Source: Thermoplasmata archaeon
GTDB lineage: Archaea > Thermoplasmatota > Thermoplasmata > Thermoplasmatales > Thermoplasmataceae
NCBI GenBank assembly: GCA_021850745.1
Contig: JAJZKX010000012.1
Span: 1-16,025, forward strand
Reading direction: 5' to 3'
DNA: 16,025 nucleotides
Shown here piece after piece: positions 1 through 15,424 of this stretch. Numbering within the stretch: position 1 is the first letter of the stretch; each line of letters begins with the position of its first letter. Under the pieces are notes generated by a model. The model saw nothing but the letters and a program-made list of their open reading frames with translations. It searched no databases and had not been told where the DNA came from. Made by a program: the position numbers and the translations under genes.

Positions 1-1
1 C

Positions 2-1021
2 TCAGGCAGTTTTGAGCTCATAAAGGTAGGCCCAATTTCATCACTAGTGTCAATAATGCAGTTGGGCACAAACGGGGGCGGATATTTCGGCGCAAATTCA
101 GCATATCCCTTTGCCAATCCCAGCCCGCTTACAAATTACATAGAGCTTGGCGGAATGATGCTCCTCCCCACTGCCATGCCATTCCTCTTCGGAAGAATGC
201 TCCGCATGAAGAAAGAGGGCAGGACTCTCCTGATTGCATCCTATGGGCTTTATGCCATTGATCTTGCAATCGCCCTTATTCCAGTTACTACACTGGGCGC
301 CGGCATGGAGACTAGGCTAGGAGGATTTTCAACAGCCCTTTATACTGTTACTACAACCGCATTCACCACTGGATCAGTCAATACCTCACTGGCAGCAATG
401 CATCCACTGGTTATCATGGCAGCCCTCATGGGCATGATGATACAGGCCACTCCCGGGGGGATCGGTGTGGGGGCCATGTATATGCTCATGTACGTGCTGA
501 TTACAGTATTCATTGTGGGGCTCATGGCGGGCAGGACCCCAGAATACCTTGGGGCAAAAATAACTGCAAATGATGTAAAGCTTGCAGTTATAGCATTCCT
601 GGCACATCCAGTAGTAATTCTGGTTCCAACAGCCCTTGCCTACGCACTAGGTGCAGTTCATGCCATAGGATTGGGGACGGGTCCTGTAGGGTTCACACAG
701 ATACTCTATGAATACACTTCAGCTGCAGCCAACAACGGTTCAGATTTCCTGGGGACAACTGGAAATACTGTGTTCTTCAATGTTTCCACCGGGATAGTAA
801 TGTGGGCCGGCCGTTTCATACCCATATTCATAATGCTGGCAATGGCAGGCAGAATGCTTGACAAGAAGAGGAGCACAGAAGTTGCACTAAGGACTGACAA
901 CCTGATTTTCCCGGCGATCCTCATTATCAGCATCCTAATACTTGCAGTTCTGACATTCTTCCCGTTCCTTGCGGTTGGACCAATTCTTATGCATCTGGAG
1001 GGGATAAAAAATGCCCTTTAA
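2..1021 (+). CDS. kdpA: Potassium-transporting ATPase subunit KdpA, C-terminal part (5' end outside window)
   Basis: KdpA is the potassium-selective membrane subunit of the KdpFABC pump. The frame is open from base 2, so the gene is cut by the window edge; about 210 residues of a family length near 560 are missing. The GTG at 47 is internal, because conserved KdpA sequence precedes it. Selectivity-filter loops are visible: LGTNGGGYFGANSA soon after the window start, TTTAFTTGSVN in the middle, and TSAAANNGSDFLG later. The family motif GRTPEYLG is also present. Several hydrophobic membrane spans run to the C-terminus. The stop overlaps the start of kdpB by 11 bases, so the two are surely co-transcribed. 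Promoter and any kdpF lie outside the window. Identification is very secure. Confidence 0.96.
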   Translation, partial: SGSFELIKVGPISSLVSIMQLGTNGGGYFGANSAYPFANPSPLTNYIELGGMMLLPTAMPFLFGRMLRMKKEGRTLLIASYGLYAIDLAIALIPVTTLGAGMETRLGGFSTALYTVTTTAFTTGSVNTSLAAMHPLVIMAALMGMMIQATPGGIGVGAMYMLMYVLITVFIVGLMAGRTPEYLGAKITANDVKLAVIAFLAHPVVILVPTALAYALGAVHAIGLGTGPVGFTQILYEYTSAAANNGSDFLGTTGNTVFFNVSTGIVMWAGRFIPIFIMLAMAGRMLDKKRSTEVALRTDNLIFPAILIISILILAVLTFFPFLAVGPILMHLEGIKNAL

Positions 1022-3173
1022 TGAGAAACAGATTAGCGGAAGGACAGCCGGGCAGGAAAATCTTGAGGAACCCATCAGCTGGCTATATGTGGCTAAGGAC
1101 TCCCTCCTAAGGATGAGTCCTATGAGGCTCATAAAGAACCCTGTGATGTTCGTAGTAGAACTGTCCTTCCTGGTAGTTTTGCTCATGACAATAGTGCCGG
1201 GGGCTTTTCCTCATCTGGCACACCAGAACGACAGGGTTTTCTATGCGTATGTAACGGCAATACTCTTTGTAACTGTGTGGTTCAGCACCATTTCTGACTC
1301 TTTTGCGGAAGCAAGGTCCAGGGCAACTGCTGCAAACCTGAAGAAGCTAGAAAAAGAGGGAGTTGCCAGGAGAATTCACGAAAACGGAAGCGAGGGGAGA
1401 ACCATCGAAACTGTGAAATCATCTGATCTCAGGAAAGGGGACGTCATACTTATTGAGAAGGGTGACCAGGTTCCAATTGATGCGGAAGTATCGGAGGGAA
1501 TTGCTATGCTGGACGAGTCCCTTCTCACCGGTGAATCGGTGGGAGTGAGGAAATCAAAGGGTGACACCGTAATTGGGGGTTCTACTGTTGTCAGCGATTC
1601 CATCGTTGCAATTGTAAATGTAAATCCAGACGAGACTTACATCAGCAAGCTTGTGAAAATGGTTGAATCCTCGGAAAGGCCCAAGACGCCAAATGAGGTG
1701 GCACTCTCCATACTGCTCCTTGGGCTGACAGGCGTGTTCACCATCATCCTGTTTGCACTCATAGCGCTCTCCCTTCTGCTCAATCTCGGCGCCGATCTCT
1801 CTGTGCTTATCGCGCTCTACGTGTGCCTTCTTCCAACCACGATTGGCGCATTGCTGCCGGCAATAGGAATCTCTGGAATAACCAGAATGTCAAAGAACAG
1901 CATTATCGCCAAATCCGGCAAAGCCATAGAGACTGCAGGAGACGCAGACACAATACTGCTGGACAAGACTGGAACCATAACTGTTGGGAACAGGCTCGCA
2001 CATGAGTTTATCCCTCTAGGCGGCCACTCAGAAAGAGAACTTGCTGAAGCTGCATTCCTGTCATCATGGAATGATGATACACCGGAAGGGAGGAGCATAG
2101 TGGAACTTGCCTTCGCAAAGAGGTTTGTCCCGAGGGAATATGATGCACTTAGGGAAGGCGTGCATGAGGAATTCAGCGCAGTCACAAGAAGGAGCGGAAT
2201 AACCCTTGTTGACTCCGACGACTTCACCCTCCCCAAAGGCGGGAGGGAATTCTACCAGAGGCACAGGTTCAGGAAGAAATTCGAGCTCCAGACTCCCCTG
2301 ACGGAAGATACGACCATTCACAAGGGTGCCCCAGATGCCATAAAGGATTCAGCGGAAGCCTGCCCTGACAATTATGATGATGTGGTTACCAGGATCACTT
2401 CGGAGGGAGGTACCCCAATTGCCGTATCCATGAACGGGACTGTACTCGGGATCATATACTTCAAGGATGTGATCAAGCATGGTATCAAGGAGAGAATCCT
2501 CGGGCTCAGGAAAATGGGGATAAGGCCGGTGATGATCACGGGAGACCACCCCCTTACGGCAAGAAGCATTGCCGGCGAGGTGGGGATTGATGAATTTGTT
2601 GCCCAGGCCAAGCCCGAGACCAAGTACCAGAAGGTCAAGGATGAACAGGCGGAGAACCGGATTGTTGCAATGATAGGGGACGGCACAAACGATGCCCCGG
2701 CCCTTGCCGCTGCAGACGTGGGGCTTGCGATGGCCTCAGGTACATTCGCTGCAAAGGATGCCGCAAACATGGTGGACCTTGAGTCAAACCCTTCAAAGAT
2801 CATCGACGTAGTAATGCTAGGAAAGCAGCTTCTGATGACCAGGGGGGCCGTTACTACATTCAGCATCACCAATGATGTTGCCAAGTACTTTGCTATCGTG
2901 CCAGTAATGTTTGCCAGCATCCCTGCGCTTGGCGCCCTGAACATTCTTGGCCTGGCTCCGCAAACCGCTGTGCTTTCTGCACTGATCTTCAATGCCATTG
3001 TCATTCCTGCACTCATACCCATAGCGCTGCGGGGAACGAGGTTCAAACCCCAGAGCACTCTGAGAATATTCCTGAAAAACCTATTCCTGTACGGAGTGGG
3101 AGGAGTGCTGCTGCCATTTGCGGCCATAAAGCTGATTGCTGTATTCCTGGTATTTACAGGAGGCATAATATGA
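1011..3173 (+). CDS. kdpB: Potassium-transporting P-type ATPase subunit KdpB
   Basis: KdpB is the catalytic P-type ATPase subunit that hydrolyses ATP to drive potassium import through KdpA. It is 720 residues; the E. coli protein is 682. Motifs in order: RNPVMF-like start of the first membrane span (KNPVMFVVE), actuator loop TGES at residues 173-176, phosphorylation motif DKTGTIT with the aspartate at 318, nucleotide-domain KGAPDAI, MITGDH, and hinge GDGTNDAPAL from residue 556. Membrane helices lie near 45-105, 235-295 and in the last 120 residues. Relative to E. coli there is a short N-terminal extension and about 25 extra residues in the nucleotide-binding domain before KGAPDAI. ATG 1011 is preceded by a strong SD (GGAGGGG, 997-1003). 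The stop overlaps kdpC as ATGA. Confidence 0.98.
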   Translation: MPFNEKQISGRTAGQENLEEPISWLYVAKDSLLRMSPMRLIKNPVMFVVELSFLVVLLMTIVPGAFPHLAHQNDRVFYAYVTAILFVTVWFSTISDSFAEARSRATAANLKKLEKEGVARRIHENGSEGRTIETVKSSDLRKGDVILIEKGDQVPIDAEVSEGIAMLDESLLTGESVGVRKSKGDTVIGGSTVVSDSIVAIVNVNPDETYISKLVKMVESSERPKTPNEVALSILLLGLTGVFTIILFALIALSLLLNLGADLSVLIALYVCLLPTTIGALLPAIGISGITRMSKNSIIAKSGKAIETAGDADTILLDKTGTITVGNRLAHEFIPLGGHSERELAEAAFLSSWNDDTPEGRSIVELAFAKRFVPREYDALREGVHEEFSAVTRRSGITLVDSDDFTLPKGGREFYQRHRFRKKFELQTPLTEDTTIHKGAPDAIKDSAEACPDNYDDVVTRITSEGGTPIAVSMNGTVLGIIYFKDVIKHGIKERILGLRKMGIRPVMITGDHPLTARSIAGEVGIDEFVAQAKPETKYQKVKDEQAENRIVAMIGDGTNDAPALAAADVGLAMASGTFAAKDAANMVDLESNPSKIIDVVMLGKQLLMTRGAVTTFSITNDVAKYFAIVPVMFASIPALGALNILGLAPQTAVLSALIFNAIVIPALIPIALRGTRFKPQSTLRIFLKNLFLYGVGGVLLPFAAIKLIAVFLVFTGGII

Positions 3174-3646
3174 AAGGAGGAAAACTGATTTCAGGAACCC
3201 TGCGGCTTGCCCTGGTCCTAGCCCTGATTTGTGGTGTGATATACCCCGTTGTTGTCACAGGCATTGGGCAGGCACTGTTTCCGTTCCAGGCAAACGGTGA
3301 GATGGCACAGTTGAACAATGCAACCGTGGGGTCATACCTCATAGGGCAGTCCACAAACAACTCGCACTACCTGTTCAATGTGAGGAATGATTCAGCCTCA
3401 GGGGTGGATCCTGATATCACGGTAACAAGTGCAATGGCCCAGGCCCAGGTGATTCACAACTCTACAAACATATCCCTGGCCTACCTGGATGGCCTGATAC
3501 ATAACAATACCCGGTACTCCATGTTCTTTTTCGGAACAGCGTATGTGGATTCACTGAGCCTGAACATCCTGATCATAGATCATTTCCACAACAGCATTGC
3601 TGTCTACGGGAAGATCTATAATGGCCTGAACACAACAGGAAGCTGA
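3170..3646 (+). CDS. kdpC: Potassium-transporting ATPase subunit KdpC, asparagine-rich
   Basis: KdpC is the single-span accessory subunit of the Kdp pump, with its C-terminal domain outside the membrane. It is 158 residues, shorter than E. coli KdpC (190). The N-terminal span (about residues 11-36) ends in the family pattern LICGVIYPVVVTGIGQALFPFQANG. The motif SASGVDPDIT at 75-84 matches the family SASGLDNNIT, and YVDSLSLN near 125-132 matches the C-terminal motif. The region between them is compressed. The outer domain carries seven N-x-S/T sequons, which suggests heavy surface N-glycosylation (inference). ATG 3170 overlaps the kdpB stop and has AGGAGG at 3158-3163, six bases upstream. It is the last gene of the kdp cluster; no kdpD or kdpE follows. 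Confidence 0.93.
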   Translation: MKGGKLISGTLRLALVLALICGVIYPVVVTGIGQALFPFQANGEMAQLNNATVGSYLIGQSTNNSHYLFNVRNDSASGVDPDITVTSAMAQAQVIHNSTNISLAYLDGLIHNNTRYSMFFFGTAYVDSLSLNILIIDHFHNSIAVYGKIYNGLNTTGS

Positions 3647-4765: not shown

Positions 4766-6448
4766 TCAATCTGATATTATCCTGTTCCTCAGCCCGTCGT
4801 AGTACCTGTAAAGGAAGATCAGGAATGAGGAGAATGTTATATTGTGGTGCTTGGACCATTCGATCTCTTTCACCATGTAGTTCAGGTGCATTCCCATTGC
4901 GTCAGCCGTGACAATAGAGCCACCTTCCCTGTATGCATCGATATTCCTTACGATGCCTTCCATTTCCGACTTCGATATGAGTCCGAGCCTCTCCCTGACC
5001 TGAGCCATCATTTTCCCTGTCTCGTATGTAATGTGGACAAGATCTTCCCTGCTCATTTCCTTAGTCTCGTAATTGAGGTAATCCTCCCAGCTCTTCCCCT
5101 GGTCTAGAAGCATGTAATAGTCACCCAGGGTCTTTGCCCTGAGGGTTATCCCATACCTGTCATGCATCTCATAGAACAGTGATCCGGGATCAAGGAATGG
5201 GGTAAGGGGCGAGAGGAAGGCATGCATCTCCATCCTTCTCCCGATATGCTGCGACATGAGATATTCGGAGAATTCAACATCTGCAATGACGTCTTCCTTC
5301 TTCTGCCTGGGAAGCCCAATGGTGAAATATACGTCAAATTTCCTGCAGCCGTTTTTTGCGGCGTTAAGAAGGGATTTTTCCAGTTCATGGTTTGAATAGC
5401 CTCGCCCAGCTATGAGCCTTATGCTCTCTTTCGAGGAATCTGGCGAGATTTCAGCGGTGAAGTTTGGAAATGACCTGCTGAGCTTTTCAAAATATTCCTT
5501 GCTTGGAGGGATGAAGTATTCTGTGAGCAAAGGGATATCCACGCCCCTCTCCTTTGCGGCTTTGAAGAAGCCATCCTGGAACTTCTCCCCGGCTGCGAAA
5601 ATATCCCCTGCAATGAAAACCGGGGTGCCTATGCTGTCCTGTATTATCTCCAGTTCCTCGGTGACCCTGTCAGGGTTTCTGAAAATTGGTGACTCCTGGC
5701 AGTAATTGTGGGAAAATGCAAAATTTGATCCTCCGCAGAAACCACAATTGTACTGGCACCCATGCTCTATGAGGGTCATGGCAGAGGGATTCTTTATCCA
5801 GAGCTTGTAAGGCAGGTGCCCCTTTACATCAGCGTACTTGATTGCGTTCTTCATCAGGAGGTTGTAGTTCAGAAGCACATCATTTATTGCCCCCGGATCA
5901 AAACTTGGGGGATTGCTCCGGACTTTTCCCTCCTCCCTGTACATGAGGTTAGGGACTGTTGAGAGATTCCTGTTTCCCTCCACCGCCTCAGCAAGCTGCA
6001 CGATGGAATGTTCCTGGAGGTCCCCGTTCAGGATGAAATCAACGAATGGAAACTGCTTCATTATCTCATTGGCAAAATAGGTTGTGGAAAAACCACCCAT
6101 GAGAAGCTTTGATTCAGGGTGTATTGATTTTATTACCCTTGCGAGGTTGATAGCGCCATGCACGTGAGGGAGCCAGTGGAGGTCTATGCCAAAGATGTCC
6201 GCTTCGATGTTTGACAGGTATTTTTCAGGGTCAAAAGCATTGGATCCGAGCATGAGTACGGCAATATTGCTTATCCTGGCATTGTAACCATTTGATACCA
6301 GAGAGTTCAGCATGCTTATGAACCCGACAGGGTACATTTCAAAAAGGGGAGTAGATGGAACAACATCGCTGATTGGCCCAGATCTTAAGTTCTTCTTCCT
6401 GAAATCATAAATACTAGGGGGATGGACAAGGCATACGTTGACTTTCAT
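4766..6448 (-). CDS. B12-binding domain / radical SAM protein of unknown function
   Basis: About 560 residues from the chosen start. The N-terminal 150 residues form a cobalamin-binding-type Rossmann domain: strand MKVNVCLVHPP at the start, FGIDLHWLPH, then GGFSTTYF and FILNGD. The family DxHxxG cobalt-ligand motif is not visible, as is common in this class. The radical SAM cluster motif CxxxCxxC is CQYNCGFC (Cys 231, 235, 238), followed by TIM-barrel features such as FIAGDIF and FTIGLPRQKKED. I recall a related family named after Thermoplasma Ta0216, but could not check it. The ATG at 6446-6448 is preferred to the upstream in-frame ATG at 6491-6493, because the conserved first strand begins there. 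The substrate is unknown; such proteins often do methylations or unusual C-C chemistry. The gene stands alone and converges on mscS with no gap. Confidence 0.85.
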   Translation of the reverse strand: MKVNVCLVHPPSIYDFRKKNLRSGPISDVVPSTPLFEMYPVGFISMLNSLVSNGYNARISNIAVLMLGSNAFDPEKYLSNIEADIFGIDLHWLPHVHGAINLARVIKSIHPESKLLMGGFSTTYFANEIMKQFPFVDFILNGDLQEHSIVQLAEAVEGNRNLSTVPNLMYREEGKVRSNPPSFDPGAINDVLLNYNLLMKNAIKYADVKGHLPYKLWIKNPSAMTLIEHGCQYNCGFCGGSNFAFSHNYCQESPIFRNPDRVTEELEIIQDSIGTPVFIAGDIFAAGEKFQDGFFKAAKERGVDIPLLTEYFIPPSKEYFEKLSRSFPNFTAEISPDSSKESIRLIAGRGYSNHELEKSLLNAAKNGCRKFDVYFTIGLPRQKKEDVIADVEFSEYLMSQHIGRRMEMHAFLSPLTPFLDPGSLFYEMHDRYGITLRAKTLGDYYMLLDQGKSWEDYLNYETKEMSREDLVHITYETGKMMAQVRERLGLISKSEMEGIVRNIDAYREGGSIVTADAMGMHLNYMVKEIEWSKHHNITFSSFLIFLYRYYDGLRNRIISD

Positions 6449-6518
6449 GGAAAAAGAATCGTAAATGTGTAAATGAACTGAGTATGCTAACATTCAGGTG
6501 TAAGAGTCTTATCTGCAT

Positions 6519-8731: not shown

Positions 8732-8740
8732 TTTAAATAA
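8732..8740 (+). promoter_or_regulatory. TATA box of the shikimate operon leader
   Basis: TTTAAATAA matches the archaeal TATA consensus. Taking the usual spacing of 24-31 bases from box to start, transcription would begin at 8760-8763, exactly at ATG 8761. A weaker TTTTATAC at 8712-8719 is a second candidate, which would start near 8742. No comparable box lies 25 bases before the DAHP synthase start at 8859. Confidence 0.65.
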
Positions 8741-8760
8741 TAACAGTGATACAGAGTGTC

Positions 8761-8835
8761 ATGGCTATCGGGGAAGATCATATAAAGATATCTGCGGGAA
8801 TGTTTGTATTCCCGTTCTGGATACGGTATGCATGA
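8761..8835 (+). CDS. Putative aromatic-rich leader peptide (24 codons)
   Basis: ATG 8761 opens 24 codons ending in TGA at 8833-8835. The predicted peptide begins MAIGEDHIKIS, and its second half holds FVFPFWIRY: three Phe, one Trp and one Tyr within nine codons (8803-8829), covering all three aromatic amino acids. It sits at the predicted transcription start, so it could be translated without any SD, and it ends 23 bases before the DAHP synthase gene of a complete aromatic pathway operon. The composition fits a regulatory leader peptide of the trp/phe attenuator kind. No such archaeal case is known to me. It is in a different frame from DAHP synthase, so it is not an N-terminal extension. An in-frame GTG at 8746 exists but is too close to the TATA box. 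Confidence 0.5.
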   Translation: MAIGEDHIKISAGMFVFPFWIRYA

Positions 8836-8851
8836 TCTTCCTCATTTGAGG
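8770..8851 (+). promoter_or_regulatory. Structured mRNA leader with mutually exclusive stems before DAHP synthase
   Basis: Bases 8770-8781 pair with 8832-8843 in a 12-bp stem with one G-U (core GGAAGATCAT / ATGATCTTCC). Inside it, CGGGAAT (8795-8801) pairs with ATTCCCG (8808-8814) around a six-base loop. The 3' end of the long stem, CCTC (8840-8843), can instead pair with GAGG (8848-8851), which is the SD of DAHP synthase. Thus the long stem frees the SD and the small hairpin hides it. No T run follows, so control of translation is more likely than transcription termination. The pairings are read from sequence; stabilities were not computed. Confidence 0.55.
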
Positions 8852-8853
8852 GA
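8848..8853 (+). promoter_or_regulatory. Shine-Dalgarno deciding the TTG start of DAHP synthase
   Basis: GAGGGA lies five bases before TTG 8859, and an in-frame TGA at 8856-8858 directly precedes that TTG. This forces the start at or after 8859 and shows the gene is translated from an internal site, not leaderless. Confidence 0.7.
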
Positions 8854-8858
8854 TTTGA

Positions 8859-9848
8859 TTGGTAAAATACAGGGTTTTTGTTCTGAAAGGGGGCGCTGAT
8901 TCCCCAAAACTGCTGGAGAACTTAGGCAACGGCACGGCTTCTGTAAAGACTGTCCAACTTTATGGAAAGACTGTGGTGCTTTCATGGCCTGATTCCGGAC
9001 AGCCGGTTAACAATCCCGATATTGAATTCCAGACTTCAATTGATGGAGATTTCATTCTTAGCTCTATGGAGTGGAAGATGGAAAGGACAATCGTTGATGT
9101 GGGCGGGGTCGAGGTGGGCGAAGGAGTTACCATTGCCGCTGGCCCCTGTTCAATTGACTTCACTGAAGGGGTGGAGGAATTTGCAAAACAGCTGAAACAT
9201 GCTGGGGCTAACATAATCAGGGGAGGCGCATACAAGCCAAGGACTAGCCCGTTCTCTTTTCAGGGGAAGGGAACTGATGGCCTCGATATACTCAGGAGAA
9301 TGGGAGATGCTGCTGGCCTCCCCATCGTTTCGGAAATACTGGATCCAGACAATATCCGGAACTTCAACGGAGTGGATTTGCTGCAGATAGGATCAAGAAA
9401 TGCCCAGAATTTCCAGCTCCTGAGGAAGGTTGCCAGGGATGGAAGGCCCATACTCCTTAAGAGGGGGATGGGCAACACATACACCGAATGGATGGCAACC
9501 GCCGATTACGTCATGGGCGAAGGGAATGGATCGGTTATACTCTGCGAGAGGGGCATAAGGACTTTTGAGAATGCCACCAGATTCACTCTTGACGTTGGAT
9601 CCATTGCAAGGGCCAAGAACGAGTCACACCTGCCAATTTGCGCCGATCCCAGCCACCCGGCCGGAAGGAGGGACCTTGTCGTTCCCATGGCCCTTTCGTC
9701 AGTTGCTGCTGGGGCGGACATGCTTCTTGTTGAGGTCCACCCAAACCCTGATAGTGCCCTGAGTGATGAGAAACAGCAGATTACTGTCCAGGACCTGGAA
9801 AAATTGGCAAATTCGGTGAAATCCCTCCGGCAGGCAATCAAGGTATAA
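8859..9848 (+). CDS. aroF: 3-deoxy-D-arabino-heptulosonate 7-phosphate (DAHP) synthase, type I beta
   Basis: DAHP synthase condenses phosphoenolpyruvate with erythrose-4-phosphate, the first step of the shikimate pathway. The protein is 329 residues and aligns closely with the Thermotoga maritima type I-beta enzyme. Catalytic stretches: AGPCS (Cys97), RGGAYKPRTSPFSFQG (121-136), QIGSRNAQNF, LLKRGMGNT (199-207), CERGIRTFE (229-237), DPSHPAGRRD (263-272), VEVHP (291-295), LSDEKQ (301-306). Expected metal ligands are Cys97, His266, Glu292 and Asp303. Residues 1-75 correspond to the ferredoxin-like regulatory domain that mediates Tyr/Phe feedback in T. maritima, but are divergent. Start is TTG 8859 with an SD. 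First structural gene of the operon, one base before aroB. The symbol is by analogy; aroG is also used. Confidence 0.95.
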   Translation: MVKYRVFVLKGGADSPKLLENLGNGTASVKTVQLYGKTVVLSWPDSGQPVNNPDIEFQTSIDGDFILSSMEWKMERTIVDVGGVEVGEGVTIAAGPCSIDFTEGVEEFAKQLKHAGANIIRGGAYKPRTSPFSFQGKGTDGLDILRRMGDAAGLPIVSEILDPDNIRNFNGVDLLQIGSRNAQNFQLLRKVARDGRPILLKRGMGNTYTEWMATADYVMGEGNGSVILCERGIRTFENATRFTLDVGSIARAKNESHLPICADPSHPAGRRDLVVPMALSSVAAGADMLLVEVHPNPDSALSDEKQQITVQDLEKLANSVKSLRQAIKV

Positions 9849-9849
9849 G

Positions 9850-10893
9850 ATGCTCAAACTAACATACAGGCTTTCCAGAGGCACAACACGCATTACACTT
9901 GGCAATGGTGCAATAAGTTCCCTTAAGGGACTCGAAGATTCACTCGTGGTATGCCCCCGCTCCCTCAGGAACATGGCCAGCTCCAGGCTCCATGGCTCCT
10001 TTGAGATTATTGAGATCCCTGAAGGGGAAGAATCAAAGGCTCTGGATACTGTCGTAACGATCCTGGATAAACTCGTGGATGGAGGGTTCAAACGCACCTC
10101 CAGGCTCATTTCATTTGGAGGCGGCACAGCATCAGACGTGGCAGGGCTAGCCGCTTCCCTATATCTCAGGGGCATCAGCTACACATCCATCCCCACGACC
10201 CTTCTCGCTATGGTTGATGCCGCGCTTGGAGGCAAGAACGGCGTCAACTACAGAGGCGTAAAGAATATGCTTGGAACTTTCTACAGCCCCTCGGAGATCA
10301 TAGTGGACACTTCTCTTGTTGGGGAAATGCCGCACAATCTGGTGGAGGACGGCATAGGTGAAATAGCAAAGTACGCGACCATAATGGACGGTGAACTTTA
10401 CGGATTCCTCATGGCAAATCAAATGGACAGTATTCTTGATGATGCTGAAAAAACAGAATACCTGATTTCAAGATGCGTCAGTGATAAGATGGATCTTGTT
10501 TCCCAGGATGAATTCGACCTGGAAGGAAAGAGGGTTATCCTGAATTTCGGCCATACCTTCGGGCATGCGCTGGAGGGAGTTTCTGAATTTTCCATAGGAC
10601 ATGGCCATGCAGTCCTGGGCGGAATGCTTCTTGAAACTGATTATGCAGCTGGAAACGGGCTTATGAACCTAGAAACAAAAGAAGGCCTCCATGCGCTCAT
10701 CAGGCACCTTGGCTTCTCAACAAGGGAAGAGGATTACCTGCCTGGACTGAGAACGGAACTCCTGAAGTACATAACATCTGACAAGAAGTCCACAAGGCAT
10801 TCCATCAGGCTGCCTCTCCCCGAAGAGATTGGAATTCCAAAAGTATGTGAAGTCGAACTCAGTAGCATAAGTGATTACCTTGGCCACCACTAA
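9850..10893 (+). CDS. aroB: 3-dehydroquinate synthase
   Basis: Converts DAHP to 3-dehydroquinate with NAD and a divalent metal, the second pathway step. It is 347 residues, normal for the family. Motifs: SFGGGTASDVAG (89-99, nucleotide loop), IPTTLLAMVDAALGGKNGVN (114-133), GVKNMLGTFYSP (136-147), GEIAKYA (170-176), NFGHTFGHALE (232-242), and SIGHGHAVLGGM (248-259). Likely metal ligands are Glu171, His235 and His251. This is the bacterial-type enzyme, not the methanogen DHQ synthase II, which fits the DAHP synthase upstream. ATG 9850 follows the previous stop by a single base and has AAGGT a few bases upstream. Confidence 0.95.
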   Translation: MLKLTYRLSRGTTRITLGNGAISSLKGLEDSLVVCPRSLRNMASSRLHGSFEIIEIPEGEESKALDTVVTILDKLVDGGFKRTSRLISFGGGTASDVAGLAASLYLRGISYTSIPTTLLAMVDAALGGKNGVNYRGVKNMLGTFYSPSEIIVDTSLVGEMPHNLVEDGIGEIAKYATIMDGELYGFLMANQMDSILDDAEKTEYLISRCVSDKMDLVSQDEFDLEGKRVILNFGHTFGHALEGVSEFSIGHGHAVLGGMLLETDYAAGNGLMNLETKEGLHALIRHLGFSTREEDYLPGLRTELLKYITSDKKSTRHSIRLPLPEEIGIPKVCEVELSSISDYLGHH

Positions 10894-10900
10894 GGGGACA

Positions 10901-11689
10901 ATGCCGCAAATATTCGGCCTATTGGGGCACGGGATAAAGTATTCCCTGTCTCCCCGTATTCATAACTACATATTCAAGAAGTTTGGAATTAATGCCATAT
11001 ACGCACTGTTCGACGTTCCGCCGAACGATTTCAAGAAAGCCCTGAAGGCACTTGTTGGACGGGCATCAGGATTCAATGTCACAAAACCCTACAAGGAAGA
11101 AACCGCACTATTCATTCCTGATCTCTCCGGGGAAGCATCTTTGACGGGAAGCGTTAACCTTGTGAAAAAGAACAAGGGTTACAATACCGATTATCTTGCA
11201 CTGCGGGATCTGGTAGGCAACCAAAACCAGGAATTTGCGGGAAAGGAATGCACAATACTTGGTTCCGGAGGGGCCGCCAGGACTGCGGCATACCTGTTTG
11301 GGAGCTTGAAGATGAATGTAACTGTAATCAACCGGAACCTTGAAAGGGCAGAAAAGCTGGAAACTGGCCTTTCAAAGGCAGGCATCCATGCACAGGCAAT
11401 AGCCATGGGCACCGGGATTTCAGGCGGGGTTATTGAGTCAGATGTCATAGTGAACTGCATTTCTTATCCTGAATACAGGTATCCTCGCATGAAGGGCGAA
11501 CTGGCAGTGGATTTTAACTACGGATCCAGGTCCGGAGATTTCCGTAACAGGCTTATGGGCAACAGGCCATTAATCACAGGGGAGCAGATCCTGGTGGCGC
11601 AGGCAATTCACTCACAGAAGATCTGGAATAACTTGGAACCTGGTTTCGAGGAAATAATGGAGGCCATAAATGTCAAGCACACTGGGTAG
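10901..11689 (+). CDS. aroE: Shikimate 5-dehydrogenase
   Basis: Reduces 3-dehydroshikimate to shikimate with NADPH. It is 262 residues from the preferred ATG 10901. Motifs: [14 protein letters not shown] (substrate Ser15 and Ser17), FNVTKPYKE (catalytic Lys62), SVNLV (Asn86), NTDYLAL (Asp97), Rossmann loop [14 protein letters not shown] (119-132), NRNLERA after strand 2, and GEQILVAQA (Gln234) near the end. An in-frame GTG at 10871 would add ten residues and overlap aroB, but it lacks an SD and the extra residues do not look like family sequence. The ATG lies seven bases after the aroB stop, with AAGGGG upstream. The 3' end overlaps aroC by 20 bases. Confidence 0.93.
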
Positions 11690-12827
11690 GCAGTTTGTTG
11701 TCACAACATTCGGGGAAAGCCATGGCCCGGCAATGGGTGTTGTTATTGATGGAGTGCCTGCTGGCCTTGAGATCACCACTGAGGACATCAGGTTCGAGCT
11801 GCAGTACAGGAGAACAGGCAATTACCTGGTTTCCGGTAGAAGGGAAGCTGACGAGCCGGAAATATTGAGCGGCCTATACAATGGAAAGACTACAGGCGCA
11901 CCCCTTTCCTTGATTTTCAGGAACACCGATGCAATATCGTCCCTTTATTCTGAAGTGAGCCACAAACCAAGGCCGGGCCATTCTGACCTGCCGCTGATCA
12001 GGAAATATGGAAGGGAAAATTGGGACTACAGGGGAAGCGGAAGGTCCAGTGCCAGGGAAACAATTTCAAGGGTTGCTGCAGGGGCAGTGGCGAAAAAACT
12101 CCTCATGCATGTATCAACTTACATAAGCGGTTACCTGAAATCTATCGGCCCAGTTGACGGCACTGCCTGCACAGACCCGATTGCATCCCTAAATTCAAAA
12201 AAATTCCAGACTAGGGCCATTGACCGGGAAACTGATGAGAGATTCACTGCCCTGATCAAAAGTGCCATGAAAGAGGGAAACAGTTACGGGGGACTGGCAG
12301 AGGTTTTTGCCATAAACCCGCCTGAGGGCATGGGGGAGCCGGTATTCCACAAGATAAAGGCAGAGCTTGGCGGAGCTATACTTTCCATGCCTGCAGTTAC
12401 CGGCTTTGAATACGGAATGGGATTCCGTGCGTCCAGGATGAAGGGATCAGAGGCTGCCGATGAGATAGTGAAGGCTGGCGGGAATAGGCTCAGGCTAAAA
12501 GGCAACCTTTCCGGCGGGATGCTCGGAGGTTTGACCACGGGTGAGGATATTGTTGTGCGGTGCGCGTTCAAGCCAACCAGCTCAATAAGGATCCCTTCGA
12601 AGACTGTGGACCTTGACACAATGGAACCTGCGGAAATTTCCGTAACAGGTAGGCATGATCCCGTCGTCGCAGTGAGAGGGGTATCGGTGGCGGAGGCAAT
12701 GATGGCAATTGTGCTGGTTGATTATGCGATGATCTTGGGCGTTATTCCGCACGCAAGGCTTTCAGAAAAGGAATCAGGCACTATTGGGGAAAGATGGGAG
12801 GAATACATCAAGAAATGCCGGTCATAA
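11670..12827 (+). CDS. aroC: Chorismate synthase
   Basis: Converts 5-enolpyruvylshikimate-3-phosphate to chorismate using reduced FMN, the last common step to Phe, Tyr and Trp. It is 385 residues. Signatures: [14 protein letters not shown] (His18), [97 protein letters not shown] near the C-terminus. ATG 11670 lies inside aroE and is preceded by GGAGG (11659-11663) with six-base spacing, so translation re-starts locally. Its 3' end overlaps the shikimate kinase start. There is no fused flavin reductase domain, so reduced flavin must come from elsewhere. Confidence 0.96.
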
Positions 12828-13582
12828 CCCATGGGGGCGTTTCAATACTCAATGCGATTCCACTGGGGCTTGGCTCATCCTGTGCCGTTGACATAAGCGT
12901 TGAAGTGGAAGCTTCCTTCGGCCAGCAGAAACCGGGATCTGCACTGCTTGACACAATAACCAGGCATTTCAGCGAACTCTCCGGGAGGGATGTCTCCGTA
13001 AAAGTGAGAAGCGATCTGCCCCCGGGAGGAGGATTGAAAAGCAGCAGCGCGGTTGCTGCAGGTGCGGTCAAGGCCCTTGCTGAAATCACAGGGTTGGAAG
13101 TTGATATTCCGGTTCTGGCGGCCCGGCTGTCCATGGAAGCAGGCGTTTCATTTACAGGTGCGCTGGATGATGTTGCGGCATCCCTCTATGGGGGAATTTC
13201 TGTCTGTGACAATACCAGAATGAAGATACTGAAAAAAGAGCCATTCCCGGATGGCTATAGCTTTGTCCTTCTGCCCCGCGGCCCCAGGCGGGACTTTGAT
13301 CCATCCCTTCTTAGAAGGAGATGGCCCGCTTTCAAGAGCATTTCAACTCTCCTTTACACTGGAAACTATATCGAGGCTATGTCCAGAAACGGCCTCACGG
13401 TGTCGCAGGCACTTGGCTATGAAACAGATCTTCTCCTCAAAGCTCTTGAGCTTGGTGCAAAAGCCTCAGGCGTTTCAGGAAACGGGCCCTCCCTTTTTGC
13501 ACTGGTAAAAGAGGGTGATGAGGGGCCCATATTGGACTTATTCTCTCAGCTTGGGGCCCCAATTGCAAGGAGGACTGTTTAA
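12815..13582 (+). CDS. aroK: Shikimate kinase, archaeal GHMP type
   Basis: Phosphorylates shikimate at the 3-position with ATP. It is 255 residues and belongs to the GHMP kinase superfamily, not the bacterial P-loop AroK, as in other archaea. Features: [24 protein letters not shown] near the start, matching the archaeal shikimate kinase N-terminus; the GHMP ATP loop [17 protein letters not shown] (69-85); [13 protein letters not shown]; and [11 protein letters not shown] near the end. An in-frame ATG at 12794 would add seven residues; ATG 12815 is preferred because it aligns with family N-termini, although its SD (GGAGG, 12797-12801) is somewhat distant. It overlaps aroC by 13 bases. Some databases use aroK for the P-loop enzyme only. 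Confidence 0.9.
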
Positions 13583-13583
13583 A

Positions 13584-14798
13584 TTGGATGCCATGGTTTC
13601 TCCATCTGCCATAAGGGGCAGGATTGAAGCCCCCCAGTCCAAAAGCATCGCCATAAGGCTCCTCTTTGCAGGACTGCTTGGCGATGTTTCCCTGGAGGGC
13701 CTGCAGCCATCAGATGATGTGTCTTCTGCGGTGAATGCAATTGGCAGGCTGAAGGAAGCAGTGCGCTCTCACCATCATAGTCTGGGCATACTTGATCTCA
13801 AAGGTTCAGGAACAACCCTGAGGATGCTGCTCCCTGTCCTTGCTTTCCTTGGGATTGAATCCGAAATTCACGGAGACCAGACCCTTGAGCAACGGCCGTT
13901 GGGTATAATCAAATCCTGGATGGGGGAAAACGGTGCCCATCTGAGCAGCGATCACCTTCCACTGAGAATTTCAGGAAGAATTGCCACTGATGTTGTTGAA
14001 ATTTCCGGATCTGAAAGCAGCCAGTATATCAGTGGAACCATTTATGGCCTGCTTCTCACTGGTGGCGGAAAGATCAGGCTTATCCCTCCCATCAGATCCA
14101 GGGCCTATATTGAAATGACCTGCAGTGTCCTTAACAGCATAGGCTGCAGCATCAGATACCGTGGTATGGAGATAGATGTGGAACCCATGGACCAGGAAGC
14201 CCGGTTTCATGGTGCGGTTCCTGGAGATTTCCTTCTTTCCTCATTTTACGCAATTGCCTCATTGCTCACGGGTGGGGAAATGGAGATCAGCGGCCTTGTT
14301 AACCCGCAGTGGAGCAGCGGGGATTCTCGCATTGTTGACATAATCAGGTCATGTGGCGCTGCAAGCTCAATCAACGATGGCACATGGAAGATAAGCGTTA
14401 ACGGTGACCTTTCCCCTTTTAAGGAGGATGTTGAGGATTCCCCTGACATGGCTGTTTCACTTGCTGCACTTTCTGCCGGGGCTTTGGGTGAGTCCAGGAT
14501 ACTTGGAACCCACCTGCTTGGGATAAAGGAGAGCAACAGGAACCTTTCCATCTCCAATACCCTTGGGGCATTTGGGATAGAAGTTACCACGGATAACGAG
14601 ATAGTGATCCACAACACAGGAAGCTATCATGAAGGCGTTGTCAGTGACTGGAAAGACCACAGAATTGCGATGCTTGGCACAGCCCTTGCACTCAGGTCCG
14701 GCGGATTGGTCCATGGAGCTGAAGCTGTTTCCAAGAGCAACCCGCGTTTCTTCGATGGCCTGGCCAGATTGGGAGGTAGGTTTTCATTAAGATCCTGA
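13584..14798 (+). CDS. aroA: 3-phosphoshikimate 1-carboxyvinyltransferase (EPSP synthase)
   Basis: Transfers the enolpyruvyl group of PEP to shikimate-3-phosphate. About 404 residues from TTG 13584. Motifs: APQSKSIAIR (Lys20, Ser21, Arg25; equivalent to PGSKS in E. coli), KGSGTTLRML, DQTLEQRPLG, SESSQYISG, PPIRSRAYIEMT, DSPDMAVSLAALSAGALG, LLGIKESNR, DWKDHRIAM, SKSNPRFFDGL. Start choice: AAGGAGGA at 13567-13574 lies nine bases before TTG 13584, while ATG 13593 (three codons later) would have 18-base spacing; an earlier ATG at 13515 lies inside the kinase gene and adds unrelated residues. The TTG follows the kinase stop by one base. The 3' end overlaps aroD. Confidence 0.93.
   Translation: MDAMVSPSAIRGRIEAPQSKSIAIRLLFAGLLGDVSLEGLQPSDDVSSAVNAIGRLKEAVRSHHHSLGILDLKGSGTTLRMLLPVLAFLGIESEIHGDQTLEQRPLGIIKSWMGENGAHLSSDHLPLRISGRIATDVVEISGSESSQYISGTIYGLLLTGGGKIRLIPPIRSRAYIEMTCSVLNSIGCSIRYRGMEIDVEPMDQEARFHGAVPGDFLLSSFYAIASLLTGGEMEISGLVNPQWSSGDSRIVDIIRSCGAASSINDGTWKISVNGDLSPFKEDVEDSPDMAVSLAALSAGALGESRILGTHLLGIKESNRNLSISNTLGAFGIEVTTDNEIVIHNTGSYHEGVVSDWKDHRIAMLGTALALRSGGLVHGAEAVSKSNPRFFDGLARLGGRFSLRS
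14772..14777 (+). promoter_or_regulatory. Shine-Dalgarno supporting an ATT start of aroD
   Basis: GGAGGT inside the end of aroA lies eight bases before ATT 14786. The next ATG in the aroD frame is 138 bases further on, too far to use this site. Confidence 0.6.
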
Positions 14799-15424
14799 CC
14801 AAAACGGTTGCATCTCTCCCGTTCACAGGGCTGGAAGACCTAGAAAAGATTCCAGAAATCCACACAGATTTCGTCGAGCTCAGACTTGACTATTGCGAGG
14901 AACTCGAAAATCTGGACCTTGAAATGCTGAAGAAGTTCAGGGACAGGCTGATACTCACCATAAGGGATCCCCAGGAAGGCGGGGTCCGTGCCATTGAGCC
15001 ACATATAAAGTCAGGGTTGATCCAGTCTGCAATAGAGGGCGGGTTTCTGGTGGACATCGAAATTTCTTATCTCAGAAATATTTCAGTAGATTATGGGAAC
15101 CAGATCCTCTCCAGGCATTACCTTGGCGAACCACCGCTCTACAGGGAACTGGAAGCCCTTGCTGTAGAATATGAAAAAAAATGCAGGTTTCTCAAGATTG
15201 CACTCCGAAAATCGGGAAACTCCTCAAAATACCTGATTTCACTGCTAAATCGCCACAGAAACCTTGTTGCCATGGAAACTGACGGCGAACCGGCCTCAAG
15301 GATTGTTTACTCCATTCTAGGGTCCAGGCTGATTTACTGCCACATATTGGAAAAAACAAGCCCCGGGCAGATCAGCTGCGACAAGGCAATGAGAATTCTT
15401 AACCTGCTGAAAAAATTGGATTGA
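14786..15424 (+). CDS. aroD: 3-dehydroquinate dehydratase type I, apparent ATT start
   Basis: Dehydrates 3-dehydroquinate to 3-dehydroshikimate through a lysine Schiff base, completing the set of pathway enzymes. From ATT 14786 it is 212 residues, close to the family's usual 220-250. The N-terminal strand reads ILTKTVASLPF, then DFVELRLDY (28-36), ILTIRDPQEGG (Glu64), VDIEI, SRHYLGEPP (catalytic His111), KIALRKSG (Schiff-base Lys137), EPASRIVYSILGS (Arg172) and SPGQIS. The frame is closed upstream by TAG 14777-14779, and no ATG, GTG or TTG occurs before ATG 14924, which would delete the first 46 conserved residues. ATT 14786 has an SD and overlaps aroA by 13 bases. CTG 14795 or a sequencing error are alternatives. 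Last gene of the operon. Confidence 0.85.
   Translation: MKILTKTVASLPFTGLEDLEKIPEIHTDFVELRLDYCEELENLDLEMLKKFRDRLILTIRDPQEGGVRAIEPHIKSGLIQSAIEGGFLVDIEISYLRNISVDYGNQILSRHYLGEPPLYRELEALAVEYEKKCRFLKIALRKSGNSSKYLISLLNRHRNLVAMETDGEPASRIVYSILGSRLIYCHILEKTSPGQISCDKAMRILNLLKKLD

Follow-up and report, generated by a model that had tools for sequence, protein, structure and literature searches.

A candidate leaderless attenuator peptide and a shared putative operator precede the shikimate operon in a Thermoplasma-related archaeal lineage

Here, we describe a short, predicted leaderless open reading frame (ORF) with clustered phenylalanine, tryptophan and tyrosine codons ahead of a seven-gene shikimate operon in an archaeal genome, and propose that it may act as a ribosome-mediated attenuator, probably of the translational kind, with both its translation and its response to aromatic amino acids predicted. 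We consider this explanation the most likely, with middling confidence, and favor somewhat more tentatively its fuller form, in which ribosomes stalling on a leaderless archaeal leader peptide would sense each of the three aromatic amino acids and gate the Shine-Dalgarno (SD) sequence of the first operon gene, together with an operator that overlaps the leader start codon and is common to chorismate mutase.

The window, the whole stretch of 16,025 nt analyzed here, belongs to a genome (G000) of 1.73 Mb in 81 contigs that is 89.6% complete. On its plus strand, a TATA box (TTTAAATAA, 8732-8740) marks the promoter of the aro operon, and the ATG of the leader ORF (8761-8763) lies 29 nt past the first T of this box. 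The leader ORF has 24 codons (8761-8835, plus strand) and would encode the peptide MAIGEDHIKISAGMFVFPFWIRYA, in which five F/W/Y codons fall within nine (F15, TTT 8803; F17, TTC 8809; F19, TTC 8815; W20, TGG 8818; Y23, TAT 8827). From its stop codon it is 23 nt to the TTG start of DAHP synthase (DAHPS; 8859-9848, plus strand, NCBIfam match), the first gene of the operon; an in-frame TGA immediately precedes TTG 8859, which is therefore the first possible DAHPS start. Behind it on the same strand (9850-15424) follow, by best NCBIfam match, aroB, aroE, aroC, an archaeal shikimate kinase, aroA and a type I aroD, where DAHPS, aroC and the kinase score above the curated cut-offs and the best matches for aroB, aroE, aroA and aroD fall below them. 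A cluster of F/W/Y codons in a short ORF preceding the operon for their own products, all seven shikimate genes of it, is the arrangement looked for in an attenuator. An earlier note on this DNA had placed the TATA box, the ATG, the 24-codon ORF and the 23-nt distance to DAHPS at these positions, and all were re-read as it gave them. Farther upstream, the window holds apparent kdpA (cut), kdpB and kdpC potassium uptake genes, named by eye (1-3646), and on the minus strand a gene for a B12-binding radical SAM protein of the TIGR04190 family (4766-6493).

Judged from the TATA spacing, the most likely 5' end of the aro transcript is the leader ATG itself or a position a few bases 5' of it. A search of G000 for TTTAAATA-N(12-34)-ATG gave 44 matches, where the reversed pattern gave 29. 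Among the 30 matching loci that were read, 10 ORFs of at least 80 codons stand behind this TATA box: six start 30-33 nt from it, trpB (30 nt) among them, and four at 36-41 nt. The same set includes a 44-residue ORF at 28 nt and, at 30 nt, an ORF truncated by the end of its contig. The 29 nt at the aro leader are thus compatible, by spacing, with a leaderless ORF of the mycobacterial type, and it is to this spacing that the leaderless start claimed in the earlier note owes its backing. Leaderless mRNAs are described as widely used in Thermoplasma (PMC7531240). At the trp operon, a similar promoter element (ACTAAYGTTTAAATAA) lies 5' of trpB, whose ATG is at leaderless spacing in G000, a spacing kept in the alignment; the region upstream of the operon in five of the six genus genomes showed no leader peptide (trpE was assigned by PF00425, the other trp genes by eye). 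Of other biosynthetic genes, hisG was found in one of the six genomes, and KARI gave a strong match in two and a weak match above cut-off in the rest.

Our genus sample consists of six genomes (G000-G005), and DAHPS is present in all but G003. Searches of the G003 assembly for DAHPS and chorismate synthase returned no match, while matches to trpE and chorismate mutase are present, which could mean that the assembly is incomplete there or that the organism relies on importing the products. In the other five, the gene order DAHPS-aroB-aroE-aroC-shikimate kinase-aroA-aroD is identical. Since the MctP-like permease gene upstream of the operon is flipped in G004 and G001, the neighbouring gene is not what keeps the sequence 5' of DAHPS conserved. 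The leader ORF is kept at exactly 24 codons, without any indel, in G000, G004 (MAIEEDHINISAGMFVFQRWIPYL), G001 (MAIEEDHIKISAGMFVFQRWIGYS) and G005 (MDIEEEHIKVTVVIFLFFPWIQYA), four of the five operon-bearing genus members, and in all four its stop lies 23-24 nt from the DAHPS start.

Conservation within the ORF is centred on the aromatic codons. Only F15, F17, W20 and Y23 are unchanged among codons 9-24 in the four genomes (hypergeometric P = 0.003, for a range picked after the data were seen); over codons 2-24, seven are unchanged and four of these are aromatic (hypergeometric P = 0.017). At codons 18, 19, 22 and 24 all 12 of 12 columns vary, and the W20 and Y23 codons between them are constant (P = 0.0005, with columns taken as independent), while I21 changes at its third base only. 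The invariant aromatic pattern, F-x-F-x-x-W-I-x-Y, comprises three amino acids. The expectation of the earlier note, that relatives would keep the F/W/Y codons while other residues vary, is therefore borne out in four of the five operon-bearing genus members and fails in G002. Synonymous exchanges in the leader F or Y codons were sought among the four genomes and none was found. Tests for selection at the peptide level gave P values of 0.004-0.27 over six non-independent pairs; such weak values are as expected if selection acts on the aromatic codons alone, and fit weak evidence equally well.

The nucleotide sequence tells of constraint beyond the codons themselves. Across the six pairs formed by only four leader sequences (G004 and G001 are close, and G000 shares most of its 5' part with both), DAHPS differs at 39-67% of four-fold sites; in the 36 nt from -80 to -45 relative to the leader ATG, 17-24 positions differ (ungapped; 47-67%), which is near random. 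By comparison, 0-3 of the 29 positions from TATA to ATG differ, as do 1-13 of 51 nt in codons 1-17 (12-13 of 51 in pairs with G005), 6-11 of 24 nt in codons 18-25, and 0-3 of the 20 nt 3' of the leader stop. Between G000 and G004 or G001, codons 1-17 differ at 2 and 1 of 51 nt, against 65-67% of DAHPS four-fold sites and 17-21 of 36 positions upstream of the TATA box. Going by these alignments, the leader element is under constraint at the nucleotide level.

Part of this constraint is accounted for by a site that recurs elsewhere in the genus. The sequence AGTGATACNNAGTGTCATG (8745-8763, plus strand), an imperfect inverted repeat TGATAC/GTGTCA that takes in the leader ATG, occurs exactly 5' of DAHPS in G000, G004, G001 and G005 and exactly 5' of chorismate mutase (assigned by PF01817) in G002 and G003; 5' of chorismate mutase it has two mismatches in G000 and G005 and is more divergent in G004 and G001. 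At up to two mismatches, 77 family genomes gave 25 matches, of which 21 were read, against 22 for the reversed pattern, so that inexact matches elsewhere are at chance level; all six exact matches are aro or chorismate mutase promoters. We propose that this site, at the predicted transcript start, probably serves as operator for a regulator governing the Phe/Tyr branch together with the common pathway, and that a transcription factor probably also acts at 8745-8763. It accounts neither for the conservation of codons 2-24 nor for that of the SD region. Because the leader ATG belongs to the site, the placement of the ATG could be explained without translation. Each of the six genomes also has a short ORF that begins at an ATG within the shared site or at its place and runs, in another frame, across the chorismate mutase start (MPKEDGDLLFIL, MPKGESDPFFI, MPKEESDPFFI, MPKEECDPVFIQ, MPLNGSDSLYRENK and MPLNGSDSLYQENQW, each followed by a stop); since these ORFs overlap the mutase start, their codons are not independent, and they are possibly a second leader or a mere by-product of the site. 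The known archaeal Tar site TGGACA-N8-TGTCCA was rejected as a candidate, having nine matches in the window at up to three mismatches (8.7 expected), none of them near 8732.

Could a transcription factor alone suffice? The constrained stretch would then be promoter plus operator, through which a regulator controls aro and chorismate mutase, by repression or by activation, and the ORF would be a by-product of the ATG within the operator. We regard this as unlikely. In its favor are the exact and two-mismatch copies of AGTGATACNNAGTGTCATG 5' of chorismate mutase in G002 and G003 and in G000 and G005, respectively, and the archaeal precedents of TrpY and Tar at aromatic operons (PMC6737238). Against it, constraint runs past 8763, with codons 1-17 as conserved as the promoter in G000, G004 and G001 (less so than the promoter in G005), and the 20 nt after the leader stop differ at 0-3 positions in all four genomes. 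Codons 18-24 vary in a codon-phased manner that spares W and Y, and the chorismate mutase promoters have the site without an aromatic leader.

Three segments of the leader RNA (all plus strand) are predicted to pair in alternative ways. Strand 1 (GGGGAAGATCAT, 8770-8781) covers codons 4-7; strand 2 (ATGATCTTCCTC, 8832-8843) consists of the last base of codon 24, the stop and an anti-SD; and strand 3 is the SD sequence of DAHPS itself (GAGGGA, 8848-8853). Strand 2 could pair with strand 1 or, via 8838-8843, with the SD, and from sequence these two pairings exclude each other, their formation being predicted. The helix of strands 1 and 2 has 12, 11, 9 and 8 bp in G000, G004, G001 and G005, and is matched by 0.35, 0.85, 8.1 and 14.7% of shuffles, respectively; a helix of strand 2 and SD of the observed length also arises in 47-65% of shuffles. 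Variable columns number 2 of 12 in strand 1, 3 of 12 in strand 2 and 1 of 13 in the loop and SD, against 20 of 50 in between. Compensatory pair changes were sought in both helices in the four genomes, and none was found. The minimum free energy z-score is -3.0 in G000 (-3.36 in another fold analysis) and weak in G004, G001 and G005 (-1.0, -1.0 and -0.7).

To this arrangement we applied a model in which the RNA folds at 50 C and pairing under the ribosome is forbidden. With A-site codons 2-11, the SD is closed in all four genomes (0.02-0.29 unpaired), and with codons 14-17 it is open in all four (0.45-0.92); an equally large switch occurred in 7, 19, 8 and 0 of 200 shuffles for G000, G004, G001 and G005. 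A ribosome at W20 leaves the SD unpaired at 0.41, 0.62 and 0.61 in three genomes and at only 0.15 in G005, and at codons 21-22 the SD is mostly closed. At Y23 the value is 0.19-0.36 with a mask of +-12 nt and 0.55-0.81 with one of -15/+14, and the prediction for ribosome-free RNA is an open SD (0.53-0.90). The modelling thus supports a putative position-dependent SD switch. In a variant that bars pairs across the ribosome, the SD stays closed when the ribosome stalls at F15, F17 or W20 and opens only when it is at Y23 or the stop; the direction of the switch under Phe starvation hence hinges on modelling assumptions.

We propose the following sequence of events. Transcription would begin at or just before AUG 8761, as the TATA spacing suggests, and the leader ORF would be translated as a leaderless message. 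Where strand 2 pairs with strand 1 the DAHPS SD would be open, and where it pairs with the SD, closed. A ribosome at codons 2-11 would, in the model, mask strand 1 and let strand 2 close the SD; one held at the aromatic codons for want of charged Phe-, Trp- or Tyr-tRNA would free strand 1 or cover strand 2, so that the SD opens and, in aromatic shortage, DAHPS and the products of the downstream genes are synthesized. The earlier note had gone as far as having the peptide set expression of the whole pathway, and the predicted folds permit the SD switch by which it might do so. Neither the competing helices nor the site at 8745-8763 figured in that note. The output is more likely to lie at translation initiation than at termination because the hairpin at 8838-8853, which a terminator search flagged too, has no clear U run after it. 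An attenuator with an intrinsic terminator was rejected: the one match was weak (TTCCTCATTTGAGGGA followed by TTTGATTGGT), with six pairs, 0.2 expected in shuffles and a U run of at most three. A DNA-binding regulator at 8745-8763 would probably add transcriptional control common to chorismate mutase.

The same folds might serve a structured RNA whose ORF is untranslated, such as a leader that resembles a riboswitch or binds a protein and thereby controls access to the DAHPS SD. The strong G000 fold (z = -3.36), the near-invariant strands and SD, and the nucleotide-level conservation of codons 1-17, synonymous sites included, in G000, G004 and G001 would all suit such an element. We consider it improbable, however, as G005 has lost the inner hairpin present in G000, G004 and G001 yet keeps the aromatic codons, as I21 changes at the third base only, and as the leader belongs to no Rfam family: of five matches up to E 10, the best had an E value of 1.5, all were far below the gathering score, and none placed the leader in a T-box or other family.

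Similarly improbable, in our judgement, is an upstream ORF without any aromatic sensing, either feeding ribosomes to DAHPS by termination-reinitiation or encoding a functional small hydrophobic protein. The stop lies 23-24 nt 5' of the DAHPS start in all four genomes, exchanges between G005 and the others are conservative (D/E, I/V, S/T), and with pairing across the ribosome barred the model opens the SD near the stop only, all of which would sit well with such a role. Under it, however, it would be coincidental that F, F, W and Y correspond to the three pathway products, and the remaining C-terminal positions (P/Q/F, F/R/P, R/P/G/Q, A/L/S) change freely, in contrast to those of a small protein.

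The attenuator that we favor does not extend to every relative. By the terms of the earlier note, it would be refuted by relatives that have this operon but lack an aromatic-rich short ORF, and G002 is such a relative: it has the same seven-gene operon, a DAHPS that is 61-62% identical, and the TATA-ATG spacing of 29 nt, and its ORF at the leaderless position encodes only MEIVVVFV, with one Phe; the other four operon-bearing genus members keep the ORF. A comparable switch was absent from the G002 leader RNA in mask-model folding. Some 207 nt 5' of the DAHPS TTG in G002 (minus strand of the locus), 5' of the conserved promoter, lies another 24-codon ORF (MTTNSTILTNMPQCDHWFKIFSYQ) that ends in DHWFKIFSYQ, with its aromatic cluster at the end and Y next to last; from one genome, we cannot tell it from chance (7% of G000 intergenic shuffles).

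Beyond the genus, DAHPS is found in 69 of the 77 family genomes, and a leader screen of 38 loci (5 from the genus, 25 from the rest of the family and 8 from the wider order) used the first possible DAHPS starts and reported the best ORF per locus. None of the 33 loci outside the genus had an aromatic short ORF within 200 nt as best candidate, and at 31 of them the 300 nt examined gave no short ATG-initiated ORF in which four of nine codons are aromatic. Aromatic ORFs at the other two (G034 at -269 and G098 at -237) were judged to be chance; that of G034 is absent from its congener G018. At 18 of the 33, an ORF of at least 100 codons reaches or overlaps the DAHPS start. From these comparisons, the aromatic leader looks lineage-specific.

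On G000 alone, the case for the aromatic ORF is suggestive, not compelling. Dinucleotide shuffles of the 254-nt intergenic region (n = 5000) contained an ATG ORF with at least five aromatics in nine codons in 5.96% of cases, and one with at least four aromatics including F, W and Y in 7%. Chance, that is, a conserved promoter region that happens to be open in one frame and owes its aromatic codons to T-rich sequence, has in its favor these 6-7% of shuffles with a comparable ORF somewhere and the two outside-genus loci with one more than 200 nt upstream, but is very improbable, as only 0.13% of 20000 shuffles of the leader's 69 nt at the fixed leaderless place stay open with at least five aromatics in nine, and as the ORF is kept in four species despite freely diverged sequence 5' of the promoter; it is by this conservation among relatives that the leader ORF goes beyond chance.

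Attenuation through leader peptides that respond to amino acids is a textbook mechanism of bacteria, as in the trp and phe operons. Like those attenuators, the aro leader combines an ORF rich in product codons with competing RNA helices, here predicted; unlike them, it lacks a U-run intrinsic terminator, uses the SD as one helix partner, has a putative leaderless start and belongs to an archaeal host. Translational attenuation of the ermC type involves four strands, whereas the aro leader would use three. At ermC, the position of the leader ribosome decides the exposure of the downstream SD, and induction is by a drug (PMC10219788); the same dependence of SD exposure on ribosome position is modelled here, with an amino acid as the presumed signal.

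Among archaea, the aromatic operons with described regulation are, in the account of PMC6737238, controlled by the DNA-binding proteins TrpY and Tar. Our candidate shares with TrpY/Tar a common control site before separate aromatic operons, but the Tar site sits upstream of BRE/TATA (PMC6737238), whereas ours falls between TATA and ATG, has another sequence and is accompanied by a leader ORF. Attenuation is named in general terms as the way in which upstream ORFs work in bacteria, archaea and eukaryotes alike (PMC10219788), and candidate upstream ORFs have been described in Methanosarcina by Ribo-seq (PMC11456600). Among the matches listed in a search of open-access full-text literature, which leaves most subscription journals outside, we found no archaeal leader-peptide attenuator; if true, the aro leader would be the first ribosome-sensing attenuator described in archaea, so far as that literature shows. 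A conserved candidate that combines a predicted leaderless start, product codons and a possible SD-gating switch makes the question of whether archaeal ribosomes serve as amino acid sensors directly testable.

By analogy, the nearest mechanism would be the leaderless poly-cysteine short ORFs that act as attenuators in mycobacteria (Canestrari et al. 2020, as cited in PMC9031893 and PMC9094748). Like them, the aro leader ORF is predicted to be leaderless, adjoins a biosynthetic operon, carries codons for the product and is proposed to control downstream translation through ribosome speed. Unlike them, it belongs to an archaeal host, its codons specify three amino acids and are spaced rather than contiguous, and its amino acid response is a prediction. 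If true, our proposal would suggest that the leaderless-leader-peptide route arose separately in mycobacteria and in a Thermoplasma-related lineage.
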